Below are positions 5,733 through 41,690 of a stretch of DNA of 64,000 bases, in pieces. Below the pieces are notes generated by a model. It made no database searches, had not been told where the DNA came from, and worked only from the letters and a program-made list of their open reading frames with translations. Where the stretch lies: assembly GCF_000341355.1 (NCBI RefSeq), contig NC_020300.1, forward strand, positions 1,178,001-1,242,000. The letters run 5' to 3'. Both the position numbers and the translations under genes were made by a program. Positions within the stretch are counted from its first letter, which is position 1, and each line of letters starts with the position of its first letter. The DNA is from Bartonella australis AUST/NH1 (GTDB taxonomy: Bacteria > Pseudomonadota > Alphaproteobacteria > Rhizobiales > Rhizobiaceae).

Positions 5733-5893
5733 GAAATAATCTTCCTTAGGGGCACGTTTGCATGTTCGTTATTATCGCACAAAAATGCAATAATAATCAA
5801 TAAGTTAAAAGATTTTTCCCACTAGATTTCCACCCACAAATCCTGGCTCTGTGGGTATTATGTTTTAAGATTTGACGGGTTGAGAAGAGGCAT
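5701..5893. repeat. ~190-bp direct repeat, copy 1 (cargo-slot boundary)
   Basis: Highly similar by eye to 8569-8762. From right to left on the minus strand it contains the last part of the o-spanin reading frame (a duplicate of the end of the gene at 8673), a promoter, a ribosome binding site and the first codons (MHR..HS.AEK) of the cargo gene. The ~2.7 kb between the two copies could be lost or gained by recombination. Confidence 0.85.
5771..5800 (-). promoter_or_regulatory. Promoter of the methyltransferase cargo gene
   Basis: On the minus strand TTGATT (5800-5795) is followed after 18 bases by GATAAT (5776-5771), about 38 bases before the ATG. The same promoter recurs at 8639-8668. Confidence 0.6.
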
Positions 5894-6047: not shown

Positions 6048-6338
6048 TTATGCGCACTTCTTGATCTGTACGCTCTTCTCAAGCTGTAAGCTCTCTAAAA
6101 TAGGGTAACAACGCGATATCAATTCACCATTGCCATAGGTCGTATCTGCAAAAAGGAGTTTCATTAAATCATCAGCAGGCGAATCTTCACTAACAACTCC
6201 CCTCATTTTAGTTACGACGTTGTTCATAGCTTTTTGGATATCAACAAACAAATCATCGTATAGGCGGGCAACTTTGCGACATTCATCTAAATATTCGCAC
6301 AAAGTAAAGAGTTCATCTATTCTCTTTTTACTCATCAT
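6048..6338 (-). CDS. Unknown protein coupled to the antirepressor
   Basis: The 96-residue, mostly helical protein (MMSKKRIDELFTLCEYLDEC at the start) contains acidic and amphipathic stretches. I do not recognise a domain. Its ATG overlaps the stop codon of the antirepressor gene (ATGA), so the two are translationally coupled and probably act together. A fragment similar to its C-terminal coding end appears near 49930-50000 in element C. Confidence 0.65.
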   Translation of the reverse strand: MMSKKRIDELFTLCEYLDECRKVARLYDDLFVDIQKAMNNVVTKMRGVVSEDSPADDLMKLLFADTTYGNGELISRCYPILESLQLEKSVQIKKCA

Positions 6339-7078
6339 ACGGCCTCCCTCAGCGTTGAATTTCCCGAAAGAATCTCCGATAAACGTGCCAGCCCCTTTGA
6401 AGTAACACGTGCCTGAACAGCGATCTTCTCACTTCCGTCACCACGGCTAATAACTTTCGTAGGACAATCCATGAGGCCTGACTGTATCTTCTCCTGGTAA
6501 GGGATATAGGCAGTATTCCCCATGCGCCTGTAGATCCATTTATTCTGCGACAGATAGGCGAATAGATCTCTCGGTCTCATCTCTAAGGCTTTAGCAGCAT
6601 TAGTGATACACATGGTACCATCTGCCCTGGTTAAGTGCTCATAGGCTGCAACCTTGGGCTCTTGCTCTTTAACCTTGCTTTCCAAGGCAATAACTTTTTC
6701 AACATTATTCAAGAGCAAAGTCTTTAGATGGTTTGGGTCGTTTAAAATCTCCTGGACATTTGTAGGAGCCGTGGCCCGACGTTCACACTCAATGAAGTAT
6801 TGTCGTGCTTGCCTGCCCTTCTTGTTGCGTTCAACCATGGATAACTCTTTCGCCATATTTAGTGAGAGGTGATATTCCTTCTGTTTTCCACCGCTTACTA
6901 AATTTTTAGTAAGCGTTACAAAGTCCCGGTTTTCAACGAATCCAAAGTCATTAATGCGGTTTTTAATCCAATCATTAAAGCGGCTTGTTACCCCTAAAAA
7001 TGCGTGTAAGTCGCGCGCATTTACCGTTTGAACAGTCTCCTGCCCAATTTGTTTTTCATTAATTGTAATGAGAGTCAT
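6335..7078 (-). CDS. Phage antirepressor (AntA/AntB plus KilAC domains)
   Basis: The 247-residue protein has an N-terminal AntA/AntB domain (VNARDLHAFLGVTSRFNDWI, then NMAKELSMVERNKKGRQARQ, about residues 15-105), a coiled linker, and a C-terminal KilAC DNA-binding domain (TNAAKALEMRPRDLFAYLSQ, about 160-245). Antirepressors of this kind bind phage repressors and trigger lytic genes. The start has AGGAG ahead of it. The 250-base leader contains the c4-type antisense module, so synthesis is probably blocked in the lysogen by small RNA pairing. A leader reading frame beginning with GTG at 7146 stays open past the antirepressor ATG, which would allow coupling as in phage P1 ant. Confidence 0.9.
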   Translation of the reverse strand: MTLITINEKQIGQETVQTVNARDLHAFLGVTSRFNDWIKNRINDFGFVENRDFVTLTKNLVSGGKQKEYHLSLNMAKELSMVERNKKGRQARQYFIECERRATAPTNVQEILNDPNHLKTLLLNNVEKVIALESKVKEQEPKVAAYEHLTRADGTMCITNAAKALEMRPRDLFAYLSQNKWIYRRMGNTAYIPYQEKIQSGLMDCPTKVISRGDGSEKIAVQARVTSKGLARLSEILSGNSTLREAV

Positions 7079-7128
7079 CGTGTACTCCTGTGAAGTTAAA
7101 TGTTTTTGATGAAGACAACCTAGAAGGC

Positions 7129-7330
7129 TGTCGGGCGCTCAAAAACACGGTTCACAGTCCGTCGTTACGCTTTTCCCATAAGGGTATTGTATGGCGTAAC
7201 CACACCCGACAAAGACTACTAATGCACGAAACTGCGCACAGAGTCAAAATCATCGCGGAAGAAAGTTTATCGGAACTCACCCGCTGTGAACTTAAAGTGT
7301 TTTTGAAGCACTTGTCTTCAAAAAAACATG
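7129..7330 (-). ncRNA. c4-like antisense RNA module 1 with its target
   Basis: Transcribed leftward ahead of the antirepressor. Upstream segments GTGTTTTTGA (plus-strand 7297-7306) and CTGTGAA (7284-7290) are perfectly complementary to TCAAAAACAC (7139-7148) and TTCACAG (7151-7157), which lie in the antirepressor leader. Between them is a hairpin with perfect stem arms GTTACGC and GCGTAAC on the minus strand (about 7165-7202). This is the P1/P7 c4 architecture: a processed leader RNA pairs in trans with a and b sites of the ant messenger. A conserved TTGACA lies just upstream (plus-strand TGTCAA near 7343). The c4 assignment is by architecture, not by a covariance-model search. Confidence 0.75.
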
Positions 7331-7398
7331 TTTAAAAAAAATTGTCAATAAGTGTTTTGAGAAATTTGTGAGTGCGTAAAAACGCCGAGAAGCGATGC

Positions 7399-7680
7399 TT
7401 ACTTGCCCTTCTTGTTGCGTTCAACCATGGATAGCTCTTTTGCCATATTTAGTGCGAGGTGATATTCCACGCTCGGACGGCCTCCTGAAGGTTTCGCTAA
7501 AATTTTAGCGAAACTGATAAAGTCTTGATTTTCTTTAAAATTATATTCATGAATGCGGTTTTTAATCCAATCTCTAAAATTGGAACTCACTTCCAAGAAC
7601 GCATGCAGATCACGCGCATTTACCGTTTGAACAGTCTCCTGCCCAAGCGTTTGCTCTGATATTGTAATGAGATTAGCCAT
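7399..7680 (-). pseudogene. Truncated antirepressor (AntA/AntB domain only)
   Basis: The 93 residues match the first ~97 residues of the antirepressor at 6335-7078 (VNARDLHAFLEVSSNFRDWI, NMAKELSMVERNKKGK) and stop exactly inside the conserved KKG(R)QARQ segment, losing the rest of the AntA domain and the whole KilAC domain. The recognition part (residues 45-75) has diverged, with ENQDFISFAKILAKPSGGR instead of the neighbour's version. It could be a deletion remnant or a short stand-alone protein. It keeps a good ribosome binding site (AGGAGG) and its own c4-like leader. Confidence 0.75.
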
Positions 7681-7734
7681 AATAGGCCTCCTTGTTGTTT
7701 AATATAGTTTCTTATTGAGGCACCTCGAAAGGTT

Positions 7735-7925
7735 GCCGGGTGCTAAGAAACACGGCAACAAGCCCGTCGTTACGCTTTCCCCATAAGGGTATTGTATGGC
7801 GTAACCACACCCGACAAGACTATTAATGCACGAAAGCGCGCAAAGAGTCAAAATCATCGCGGAAGAAAGTTTATCGGAACTCACCCGCTTGTTGCTACGG
7901 TGTTTCTTACGCACCTTCTCTTAAG
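7735..7925 (-). ncRNA. c4-like antisense RNA module 2 with its target
   Basis: A second copy of the module, ahead of the truncated antirepressor. GTGTTTCTTA (plus-strand 7900-7909) and GCTTGTTGC (7887-7895) are perfectly complementary to TAAGAAACAC (7744-7753) and GCAACAAGC (7755-7763). The arms differ from module 1 on both sides, keeping complementarity, while the central ~110 bases are almost identical. Such paired change is strong evidence for RNA pairing and for two different specificities. A TTGACA occurs just upstream on the minus strand (plus-strand TGTCAA near 7947-7952). Confidence 0.75.
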
Positions 7926-8036
7926 GAATCACACTAGAAAATATTTGTCAATAAGTATTTTGAGGAAAGTGCTCTCAAATTTGAGGAGAGCTGCCGTGCT
8001 CATTAAGCTTAATTTATCTTTATACACTTCAATCCT

Positions 8037-8600
8037 TCATGAGGTTTTAGAAATAAGATCTTCGTAAAATAATATTTCCGAGCGCAATTCTCCAACAACG
8101 TGATTAGTGCCCGGTTCTTTTATTTGTGCTGTGCTGAAATAACCGTTGCGGCCGGAAAATTTTATCCAATGCGATAATCGGTTGGGGTTCAAAGTCGAGC
8201 CGATTAAATAGCCGTAAAATTGCTGGAGCTTACCGTTAGACTTTGCCAGCAATAATTGGGAATATTCCATTAAATCAGCAACGTGATTATCCATTGAAAC
8301 GCCGGGGGCCTTAAACTCTACGATGACGGCAGCACCTTCCTTGTTTAAAATTGCTATATCAGGCCTTTTTAAATTATTTTCTTCCACGTTTCCTTTAAAT
8401 CTTCGTAACAGCTCTTCCATCCTCTCGTCTATGTCTTGCTCAAAAAAAGGACTATTATCAGGAAGTCTAATTGACGAAAGCGCTTTATCCGAGGCTATAT
8501 AATCATAATACTGGTATTCTTCATTCAATAGCCAAATATCATGCTCTGACGTTTCATCACTATCTTTCTTCTCTGCAAGAGAATGCTCTTGTCTATGCAT
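8037..8600 (-). CDS. PD-(D/E)XK nuclease-like cargo protein
   Basis: The 187-residue protein carries RPDIAILNKEGAAVIVEFKAP in the middle, which fits the PD-(D/E)XK nuclease core (Asp, then Glu-x-Lys on adjacent strands). The flanking part (WLLNEEYQYYDYIASDKALSSI and DLMEYSQLLLAKSNGKLQQFYGYLIG) resembles the C-terminal domain of large GHKL-ATPase defence-type proteins, so this may be a cut-down version of such a protein. The first codons, ribosome binding site and promoter are shared with the methyltransferase at 4428-5732. It is prophage cargo next to the lysis genes. A role in defence or in restriction together with the methyltransferase is inference only. Confidence 0.65.
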   Translation of the reverse strand: MHRQEHSLAEKKDSDETSEHDIWLLNEEYQYYDYIASDKALSSIRLPDNSPFFEQDIDERMEELLRRFKGNVEENNLKRPDIAILNKEGAAVIVEFKAPGVSMDNHVADLMEYSQLLLAKSNGKLQQFYGYLIGSTLNPNRLSHWIKFSGRNGYFSTAQIKEPGTNHVVGELRSEILFYEDLISKTS

Positions 8601-8762
8601 GGGATAATCTTCCTTAGGGGTGCGTTTACACGTTCGTTATTATCGCACAAAAATGCAATAATAATCAATAAGTTAAAAGATTTTTTCACTAGATTTCCAC
8701 CCACAAATCCTGGCTCCCTGGGTGTTATGCTTTAAGATTTGGCGGGCTAAGGAGAGGCTCAT
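8569..8762. repeat. ~190-bp direct repeat, copy 2 (cargo-slot boundary)
   Basis: Partner of 5701-5893. This copy is continuous with the complete o-spanin gene, so it is the original side of the slot, and copy 1 carries only the 3' part of that gene. Confidence 0.85.
8639..8668 (-). promoter_or_regulatory. Promoter of the nuclease-like cargo gene
   Basis: On the minus strand TTGATT (8668-8663), an 18-base spacer and GATAAT (8644-8639), identical to the promoter at 5771-5800. AAGGAAG follows as ribosome binding site before the ATG at 8600. Confidence 0.6.
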
Positions 8763-40191: not shown

Positions 40192-40875
40192 ATGCTCGAT
40201 AAAATTTTGGAACGCATTGATAAAAGACTAAAGGCTGTAGGACTTACAGAAAGTCGTGCTGCAATAGAAGCTGGTCTTTCGAATTCTACAATTCGTAGCA
40301 TACGCATAAAAGTAAAAAGAGGCGACATAAATAAAGGAGTTGAGACAAAAACACTTGCTGCCCTCGCCCCTGTCTTAAAAACGAACGTCGCTTGGCTGGC
40401 AGATGGAACAGGCAACGAAGAAGGTGAGGCCTTTGCATTAGGACAAGATGGTACGCCACTTGTATCTCAGATGAAAATTGTTGAATTAGAACAAAGAGAG
40501 ATACCACTTGTATCTTGGGTAAGTGCTGGCGAAATGAGCGATCAAGAAAGCGTAACGGACTTATCTGAATTTCCTACTGTTACAGCGTATAACCTTCCAG
40601 AAGGCCAATGGATAGCGTTGCGTGTTGATGGTCTTTCCATGAATAAGATCAGTCCACCTGATTCAATAATCTTTGTGAATATGCTTGATCAGGTCCTGGT
40701 CCCAAATGCCTGTTATGTCATTGCAGATGAAACAGGTAGGGCAACTTATAAGCGTTATCGTCCAAGCGAAACGCCTCCCTGGCAACCTGCCTCATATAAA
40801 AACATACCAGCACCAAAACTGGAAGGTGCAATAAGGATAATTGGCCGTGTTAAACGTTCCGTTATTGAAATGTAA
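40192..40875 (+). CDS. CI-like repressor 1 (HTH plus S24 peptidase)
   Basis: The 227-residue protein has an N-terminal helix-turn-helix region (LTESRAAIEAGLSNSTIRSI) and a C-terminal LexA/CI-type S24 domain: cleavage-site-like VSWVSAGEMSDQ, catalytic Ser in RVDGLSMNKISPPD and Lys in ATYKRYRP. It should repress the divergent leftward early operon (Cro-like gene, replication genes) and be inactivated by RecA-stimulated self-cleavage. Confidence 0.9.
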   Translation: MLDKILERIDKRLKAVGLTESRAAIEAGLSNSTIRSIRIKVKRGDINKGVETKTLAALAPVLKTNVAWLADGTGNEEGEAFALGQDGTPLVSQMKIVELEQREIPLVSWVSAGEMSDQESVTDLSEFPTVTAYNLPEGQWIALRVDGLSMNKISPPDSIIFVNMLDQVLVPNACYVIADETGRATYKRYRPSETPPWQPASYKNIPAPKLEGAIRIIGRVKRSVIEM

Positions 40876-40991: not shown

Positions 40992-41690
40992 TCAAACGTG
41001 CGATATAGGTTCACCAGACAAAGCTATAAAATGAACGGAGATCACTTTATCGTGTGGGAAGCGTAGCTCTTTAGGCGGGTTGAATTGTTCAAGAACTAGC
41101 TCTTCCGCATTGTGCTTACAGAAACGCTTCACAAATGCATGGGGTATTGAATGTTCGTCAATGAGAATTTGCGCAACAACAAAATCGCCCCTTTTTAAGC
41201 GGCGGTGGGGATCGATATATACGATTTCGCCATCGAAATAACGCGGAGACATCGAATCTCCACTAACTATTACACCGTAAGCGTCATTTACCTTTTGAAG
41301 TTGAGGTGGGCAAAGTACCTCAAAGAGCACGTTACCATTCAGAGCAAAATCTCCATCGACGCCCGCTACCGCCTGGCCGTAAACAGGTATCCTTTTTTTA
41401 TCGTCAAAATCTATTCGGCCAATGACTTTGGCATTTGGTTTATCAAAATTGTGAGTTACAACAGGAACAGAGACGCTTTTATCTAACTTAAACGCGAATA
41501 TAAGCACAGAGATATCCAAGTCTAAAGCTGAAGCTACCGAAGGTAATTTATCATATGCGAAAGTTTTTTTGCGTCCTTTAATAAAATCCCGTATATAGCC
41601 GCGCTCTAGGCCGACTTTCTTTGCTGCTATAGTCGACCCCAATTGAAGTTCTTTAAGTCTTTCAATAATAAGTTTTCTTAAATTTTCCAT
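40992..41690 (-). CDS. CI-like repressor 2 (HTH plus S24 peptidase)
   Basis: The 232-residue protein has an N-terminal helix-turn-helix (GSTIAAKKVGLERGYIRDFI) and a second full S24 domain: PVYGQAVAGVDGDF with an Ala-Gly cleavage site, Ser in IVSGDSMSPRYFDGE and Lys in AFVKRFCKH. It is unlike repressor 1 in its DNA-binding part. Convergent with repressor 1 and divergent from the rightward recombination operon, which it probably controls. Confidence 0.92.
   Translation of the reverse strand: MENLRKLIIERLKELQLGSTIAAKKVGLERGYIRDFIKGRKKTFAYDKLPSVASALDLDISVLIFAFKLDKSVSVPVVTHNFDKPNAKVIGRIDFDDKKRIPVYGQAVAGVDGDFALNGNVLFEVLCPPQLQKVNDAYGVIVSGDSMSPRYFDGEIVYIDPHRRLKRGDFVVAQILIDEHSIPHAFVKRFCKHNAEELVLEQFNPPKELRFPHDKVISVHFIALSGEPISHV

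Follow-up and report, generated by a model that had tools for sequence, protein, structure and literature searches.

Two separately coded antisense switches on an sRNA-Xcc1 scaffold predicted upstream of antirepressor genes in a Bartonella australis prophage

The 64,000-nucleotide stretch of the Bartonella australis AUST/NH1 genome that was analyzed (the window) holds a tailed prophage with terminase, portal and tape measure genes. Two leaders within positions 7060-7960 lead into two AntA-type genes, all on the minus strand. Antirepressor gene 1 (6335-7078) encodes an AntA domain (Pfam, 92.7 bits) and an ANT (KilAC) domain (98.9 bits), and antirepressor gene 2 (7399-7680) encodes 93 amino acids with the AntA domain only (97.7 bits, whole profile 1-68). 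Both genes can probably switch the prophage out of dormancy. Relatives of the antirepressor that carry an NCBI organism name are mostly from Bartonella among the 120 listed of 1622. Two convergent CI-like repressor genes (PHROG 4) stand side by side at 40192-40875 on the plus strand and 40992-41690 on the minus strand, and they are possible targets of the two antirepressors. Near-identical blocks of about 130 bases, found by eye at about 5735-5865 and 8600-8740, enclose the antirepressor modules; these blocks are upstream of a methylase-like gene (5732-4428) and an HSDR_N-like gene (8600-8037).

Each module has the same order on one strand: an upstream target pair (a1-b1), an sRNA segment with two arms (b' and then a'), a second target pair (a2-b2) and the antirepressor gene. 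Both arms have a target upstream (a1 or b1) and another at the Shine-Dalgarno region (a2 or b2). In module 1 the sRNA occupies 7121-7211 of the minus strand, with b' (7150-7157) in the loop of its last hairpin and a' at 7139-7148. The upstream complements are exact, with 10 bp between a' and a1 (7297-7306) and 8 bp between b' and b1 (7284-7291). Downstream, a2 (7101-7109) complements a' over 9 nt just 5' of the Shine-Dalgarno region, and b2 (7088-7094) complements b' over 7 nt and enters the Shine-Dalgarno GGAG (7088-7085). A weak hairpin with a U-rich 3' side follows b1 (7255-7284), at the place of an attenuator in relatives.

Module 2, also on the minus strand, repeats this plan with its sRNA at 7726-7816. 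Its arm b' (7755-7763) pairs exactly with b1 (7887-7895, 9 bp) and its arm a' (7744-7753) with a1 (7900-7909, 10 bp). The downstream matches are an 8-nt complement of a' in a2 (7707-7714) and a 7-nt complement of b' in b2 (7691-7697), which is followed by GAGG and enters the Shine-Dalgarno sequence. The predicted fold again places a weak hairpin (7859-7888) 3' of b1, in the attenuator position. A sequence-only reading of this DNA had already described the upstream arms, and its lengths hold for a1 of module 1 and for both arms of module 2 (10 + 9 bp), but b1 of module 1 pairs over 8 bp rather than 7. It was also right that the arms differ between the modules on both sides and that the remaining RNA is nearly identical. 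The a2/b2 pair at the Shine-Dalgarno region, which is the predicted silencing target, was absent from that reading, and the interval that it covered (7129-7925) ends before the ribosome-site target of module 1.

Both sRNA segments belong to the Rfam family sRNA-Xcc1 (RF02221), and they match its whole covariance model (positions 1-87) with 57.7 bits in module 1 and 56.3 bits in module 2, above the gathering score of 53. The search with the C4 antisense RNA model that the sequence-only reading had proposed turned out otherwise: the C4 (RF01695), c4-a1b1 and c4-2 models have no match up to E = 10 in window positions 6900-8100, and the C4 covariance model has none in the whole genome. Each sRNA segment is predicted to fold as a three-helix structure in which an outer stem closes two hairpins (-31.3 kcal/mol for module 1 and -34.3 kcal/mol for module 2, z = -2.66 in both). 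Arm b' belongs to the last hairpin, and arm a' to the segment that joins this hairpin to the outer stem. The hairpin-bearing stretch 3' of b1 has a z-score for its whole fold of -0.15 in module 1, which is no better than shuffles, and -0.52 in module 2. A scan of the coding strand of 7060-8040 found neither a terminator-like site nor a sigma-70-like promoter.

The complementarity of the arms exceeds chance expectation. Upstream pairing reaches 18 bp in module 1 and 19 bp in module 2, and the maxima among 1000 dinucleotide shuffles of each are 15 and 14 bp, so that no shuffle (0/1000 in both) attains the upstream score; the downstream score is attained by 1/1000 shuffles in module 1 and 0/1000 in module 2. 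All six arms of each module change together, and therefore the two modules differ in code and should not silence each other. The pairing scores agree with the earlier claim that modules 1 and 2 do not interfere: own pairing is 16 and 15 bp (-19.0 and -16.5 kcal/mol) and crossed pairing is 10 and 5 bp (-7.2 and -9.8 kcal/mol). Two results detract from this claim. Co-folding of whole sRNA and target molecules gives -12.0 kcal/mol for module 1 and -3.1 kcal/mol for module 2, with crossed values of -5.1 and -4.3 kcal/mol; it thus fails to reproduce the pairing of module 2, whose own value is weaker than both crossed pairs, although the co-fold is weak evidence because its model cannot form loop contacts. 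In addition, a third copy in the genome has the b' code of module 2 (cross-pairing of 12 and 11 bp), and these two modules may engage in cross-talk through their common b'.

The 1.6-Mb genome holds four RF02221 copies in all, three of them above the Rfam cut-off. The fourth (locus L004, 1501-1650) looks degenerate, with an RNA of 37.1 bits, imperfect arms and an AntA frame that by eye ends early. Its state, together with the short gene 2 that retains the AntA domain alone, would fit the notion that the modules of this genome are decaying remnants in which the arms still match, nothing is expressed and the short gene of module 2 is dead. Against this, exact arms on both sides and RNAs above the cut-off are retained in modules 1 and 2 and in the third copy, and the fourth copy displays what decay looks like, unlike the intact modules, to which it forms a natural contrast. 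We regard decay of the intact modules as unlikely.

The arms covary across relatives of the window modules, and this covariation is seated on the ribosome site. We compared 17 modules of the window type (two in the window, another in the same genome and 14 in viral contigs), which have 12 different 7-nt b' codes. An exact complement of the b' 7-mer occurs in the module's own downstream region in 16 of the 17 by script and in the seventeenth (L099) by eye; the latter is an artefact of the called start, and its matching site is just outside the extract, before GAGA. Upstream, 16 of 17 modules have the exact complement. Between modules with different codes, b' 7-mers match in 0 of 258 cases downstream and 3 of 258 upstream. 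The one true upstream miss is the second copy of locus L059 (8079-8352), where b1 has the code of L074 and the sRNA and b2 have another, and this hybrid-looking module appears as if its parts had recombined. The paired covariation that the sequence-only reading took as the signature of an antisense RNA extends beyond the window: matched codes recur in related modules when these are set against swapped controls.

The family is widespread. Within the phylum, 58 of 398 genomes carry RF02221 (40 above the cut-off), and 0 of 14 control genomes do. It is present in 74 of 247 genomes of the family of G094, which is taken as Xanthomonadaceae on the grounds that the six best sX13 (RF02232) matches come from its members. 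The core pattern was found in at least 120 stretches of viral contigs. This material yielded 161 non-redundant modules, for which the criteria were sequence pattern and outer stem rather than Rfam score; an Rfam check of 16 loci returned RF02221 above the cut-off for all 16. Seventeen modules without a called gene (including L113) were excluded from the tests, which left 118 modules and a separate set of 26 without a ribosome-site target; C4 loci (L160-L189) and distant SymE loci (L202-L261) were kept outside the set by design. Group assignment used simple text rules applied to the start of the protein, and as a result 21 modules of L262-L331, many of them target-less in kind, were placed in the 'other' or 'SymE' groups.

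Modules pair better with their own targets than with those of others. Two-part pairing averages 15.67 bp (own) versus 10.01 bp (swapped) downstream and 17.67 versus 10.44 bp upstream in the window-type AntA group (n = 15), 12.55 versus 9.51 bp and 14.36 versus 9.93 bp in the SymE-named group (n = 11), and 12.48 versus 9.16 bp and 14.22 versus 9.47 bp in the remaining 92; in each group 0 of 2000 permutations reached the observed mean. A positional test that requires at least 12 bp and a b2 end no more than 20 nt 5' of the start codon is passed by 80 of 118 own pairs and 85 of 4720 swapped pairs. By origin, these passes comprise 75 of 97 loci up to L261 and 5 of 21 from L262-L331. Because the filter used pattern and outer stem, the 118 include the probable non-RNAs L091, L111, L132 and L140, which are counted as misses. 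The two-part test replaced a comparison of the single longest loop-target helix (mean 7.31 versus 5.25), in which the own helix was strictly longest in 5 of 72 cases, a poor separation that arises because a' arms are common to many modules. A first two-part set of 75 modules (12.20 versus 9.11 bp, own strictly best in 30 of 75) was set aside because it contained probable non-RNA pattern matches (such as L083, L091, L111, L113, L136 and L140).

The genes behind the modules are mostly of antirepressor types (AntA, Bro-N, KilA-N, Rha and P22_AR), with SymE in addition. Among 92 of the 108 proteins, and with one protein able to count in two families, Pfam finds AntA 19 times, Bro-N 19, KilA-N 10, P22_AR_C 10, Rha 9, ANT 9, SymE 8, P22_AR_N 5 and ORF6C 5; this tally is tilted towards antirepressors because the proteins left out are L111 and 15 of L274-L329. 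Named modules confirmed by Rfam include those of the ant gene of phage Aaphi23, a KilA-N gene of Acinetobacter phage 4316 and a Bro gene on a Pseudomonas plasmid. The plasmid module (L154, 2498-3127) adjoins a mer operon and a Tn3-family transposase, and therefore modules may travel on transposons. Outside Pseudomonadota, a Nitratidesulfovibrio plasmid carries a 69.7-bit RF02221 match before a hypothetical gene (L155, 1982-2072). In L009, L018 and L020 a short frame seems to begin at the covered ribosome site, before a longer gene, an arrangement that recalls icd of phage P1. Within the upstream 120 nt, a T5 run occurs in 5 of 15 window-type, 9 of 11 SymE, 25 of 26 target-less and 73 of 92 other modules.

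SymE genes form a second class of neighbor. A copy of RF02221 precedes a SymE-family gene (PF08845) in one genome, the SymE relatives of which bear the name Cupriavidus, and a scan of named genomes found the RNA at five of seven Cupriavidus loci and in one Thiotrichaceae MAG, or 6 of 12 loci (L190-L201). In the other 60 SymE loci (L202-L261), searched whole and on both strands, the only pattern matches were two weak ones in L246 and L251, each at the far edge of the locus. The sRNA code and the symE ribosome site co-vary between groups, as judged by eye. Seven Xanthomonadaceae-type modules (L262, L264-L268 and L270) carry a b2 site, 6-8 nt long, whose end lies 7-9 nt ahead of the start of a SymE-type frame; this frame is cut short in L262. 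Locus L263, from the same family, has neither a b2 site nor a called gene. The positional test is passed by 7 of the 11 SymE-named modules and failed by L270, L304, L313 and L314. By their flanks, we read the SymE loci found here as probable integron cassettes. The most widespread Xanthomonas integron cassette is described as symE with sRNA-Xcc1 upstream (PMC12444791), and the SymE modules here fit that description.

A different picture holds for 26 modules that precede small genes of other kinds, 25 of them from the Xanthomonadaceae-type family and one (L008) from family f67. None of the 26 has a ribosome-site target by the positional test, and their own and swapped downstream pairing are alike (9.77 versus 9.62 bp). 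The upstream pair is nonetheless kept in these modules (14.65 versus 10.43 bp) and reaches at least 13 bp in 25 of 26, so that a1-b1 seems to be conserved for itself. By eye, several of them and phage P1 have a terminator-like hairpin with a T run 3' of b1. Of seven proteins from these modules that were scanned, five are above the cut-off of the XAC0095 model (NF047335), one is just below its cut-off, and the seventh is SymE-like with 35.3 bits, far under that model's cut-off of 132. In the Xanthomonadaceae-type loci L269-L331, most sRNA-Xcc1 copies precede XAC0095-type or other small genes. The target-less copies count against the generality of silencing at the ribosome site.

These copies bear on two broader ideas about the family. 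One is that RF02221 is a general RNA code for self and non-self with which phages lock their own antirepressors, and that bacterial copies, in integrons and beside XAC0095-type genes and sometimes lacking a ribosome-site target, silence the same-code antirepressors of incoming phages in trans, with a1-b1 as a safety catch. In a single small search, the 118 other leaders were examined for foreign targets of the 26 copies, and 5 of 3068 pairs had 14 bp; as a baseline, 28 of 5550 swapped pairs in the 75-module set reach at least 14 bp. The idea therefore gained no support, and we consider it unlikely. The other is that the family mainly regulates host genes in trans, in virulence or as vesicle cargo, and that pairing with the neighboring gene is incidental. 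Such a role has been proposed for sRNA-Xcc1 in Xanthomonas and Xylella (PMC12444791, PMC12189769), and it would accommodate the copies that have no neighboring target. Pairing with the own neighbor, however, far exceeds that of swapped pairs, many copies reside in viral contigs and phage records, and the target lists given in PMC2996969 and PMC12189769 are computational, which together make a mainly host-directed role very improbable.

Our best reading of these patterns is that sRNA-Xcc1 provides a second scaffold for C4-type antisense silencing and that the window carries two separately coded switches of this kind. We assign a probability of roughly 0.86 to the two window modules being self-contained, sequence-coded silencing switches of C4 type on the sRNA-Xcc1 scaffold. 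One transcript would contain, in order, a1-b1, the weak hairpin, the three-helix sRNA-Xcc1-family RNA of about 90 nt, a2-b2 and the antirepressor gene. After processing had released it from the leader, the RNA would bind two sites, the Shine-Dalgarno region (b2) by its arm b' and the adjoining upstream a2 by its arm a'. If this pairing forms, then translation of the antirepressor would be blocked and the prophage would stay dormant. The a1-b1 pair could capture these arms too, in cis before the transcript is processed or, as a short RNA, in trans, and may thus serve as an antidote or decoy. It is read as an antidote because IsrK, a terminated 5' RNA, activates its operon in trans (PMC4825925). 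We infer that modules 1 and 2 would also act orthogonally in the cell.

The role of a1-b1 could instead be purely cis-acting. At minimum energy both full leaders (-82.7 and -86.4 kcal/mol) place a1-b1 on the arms, and a leader with this fold could have a purely cis role in which a1-b1 pairs with the sRNA segment within one mRNA, opens or closes the ribosome site and releases no antisense RNA. The retention of a1-b1 where there is no ribosome-site target is compatible with this. The sRNA segment, however, scores as a stable closed RNA by itself; the Xanthomonas member of the family is described as a free 88-nt RNA mapped by Northern blot and RACE, with about 100 nt on the blot (PMC2996969); and C4 of phage P1, which has the same layout, is described as acting as a processed RNA, with 5' processing (by RNase P in P1; PMC5320573). 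We therefore consider a purely cis-acting leader improbable. A P1-type account, with an operon transcript, a released RNA and a block at the antirepressor start, is the most economical one.

If silencing on this scaffold occurs as proposed, then an orphan Rfam family, so far associated with virulence and vesicle cargo but lacking a mechanism, gains a testable function, and a prediction follows for how SymE cassettes stay silent. sRNA-Xcc1 (RF02221) of Xanthomonas campestris has been linked to virulence regulators and placed upstream of symE in integron cassettes (PMC12444791), whereas the window RNAs stand before antirepressors. Elsewhere in the literature as searched, it is described as a virulence-linked or integron-borne RNA or as vesicle cargo, or it is an entry in a table; one such table (PMC5331693) gives sRNA-Xcc1 89 nt and 40293 reads in E. 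coli EDL933. The literature searches found no link of sRNA-Xcc1 to C4 or to antirepressors; 'sRNA-Xcc1' and 'C4 antisense' occur in separate table rows of PMC12189769, and both names are also in a table of PMC12370729. The proposed role for sRNA-Xcc1 as a C4-type silencer of antirepressors is new so far as these searches show.

The SymE toxin gene, which is silenced by an RNA, offers one comparison. SymR is transcribed opposite to symE, and the RNA described here is predicted to cover the symE ribosome site. In E. coli SymR is reported as cis-encoded (PMC12444791), whereas the present RNA lies upstream of symE on the same strand. In the antirepressor operon of Gifsy-1, IsrK (RF01394) is a short, terminated RNA from the 5' end; it acts on its own mRNA in trans and is reported to activate translation of the operon about 140-fold (PMC4825925). 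It is an activator and corresponds to the a1-b1 part rather than to the silencing RNA; part of the P1 a1-b1 region matches the IsrK model with 35.1 bits, under the cut-off of 50. The c4-2 family (RF02944), named in the Rfam 15 paper, has a name that suggests a C4-like motif, and it was compared by name and model match: it has no match in the 16 genomes searched, in a search run without a positive control.

The closest counterpart is C4 of phages P1 and P7 (RF01695, with c4-a1b1 as RF03163). The P1/P7 c4-ant architecture recognized by the sequence-only reading is supported by the phage P1 record, which annotates a1, b1 (marked as putative), C4, a2, b2 and icd/ant in the order of the window modules. 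Both RNAs have an outer stem and two hairpins, and they place b' in the loop of the last hairpin and a' in the stretch from there to the outer stem; in both, b2 lies at the ribosome site and codes vary between relatives. When 30 C4 loci and P1 were put through a similar pairing test that allowed looser spacing, the values were 14.90 versus 10.09 bp downstream and 13.61 versus 10.05 bp upstream, and sRNA-Xcc1 is therefore like C4 in pairing with its own target. The two differ in sequence and setting: neither the C4 nor the RF02221 model matches the other's example, the printed Rfam matches give clan CL00128 for C4 and c4-a1b1 and none for RF02221, and the first hairpin of the window RNAs is a different element (AUACAAuACCC..GGG). 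In P1, icd intervenes before the antirepressor gene, whereas in the window the gene follows the module directly and no icd-like gene is present. C4-type control of antirepressors may thus be built on two RNA scaffolds with many private codes, which would make several such switches possible in one cell.
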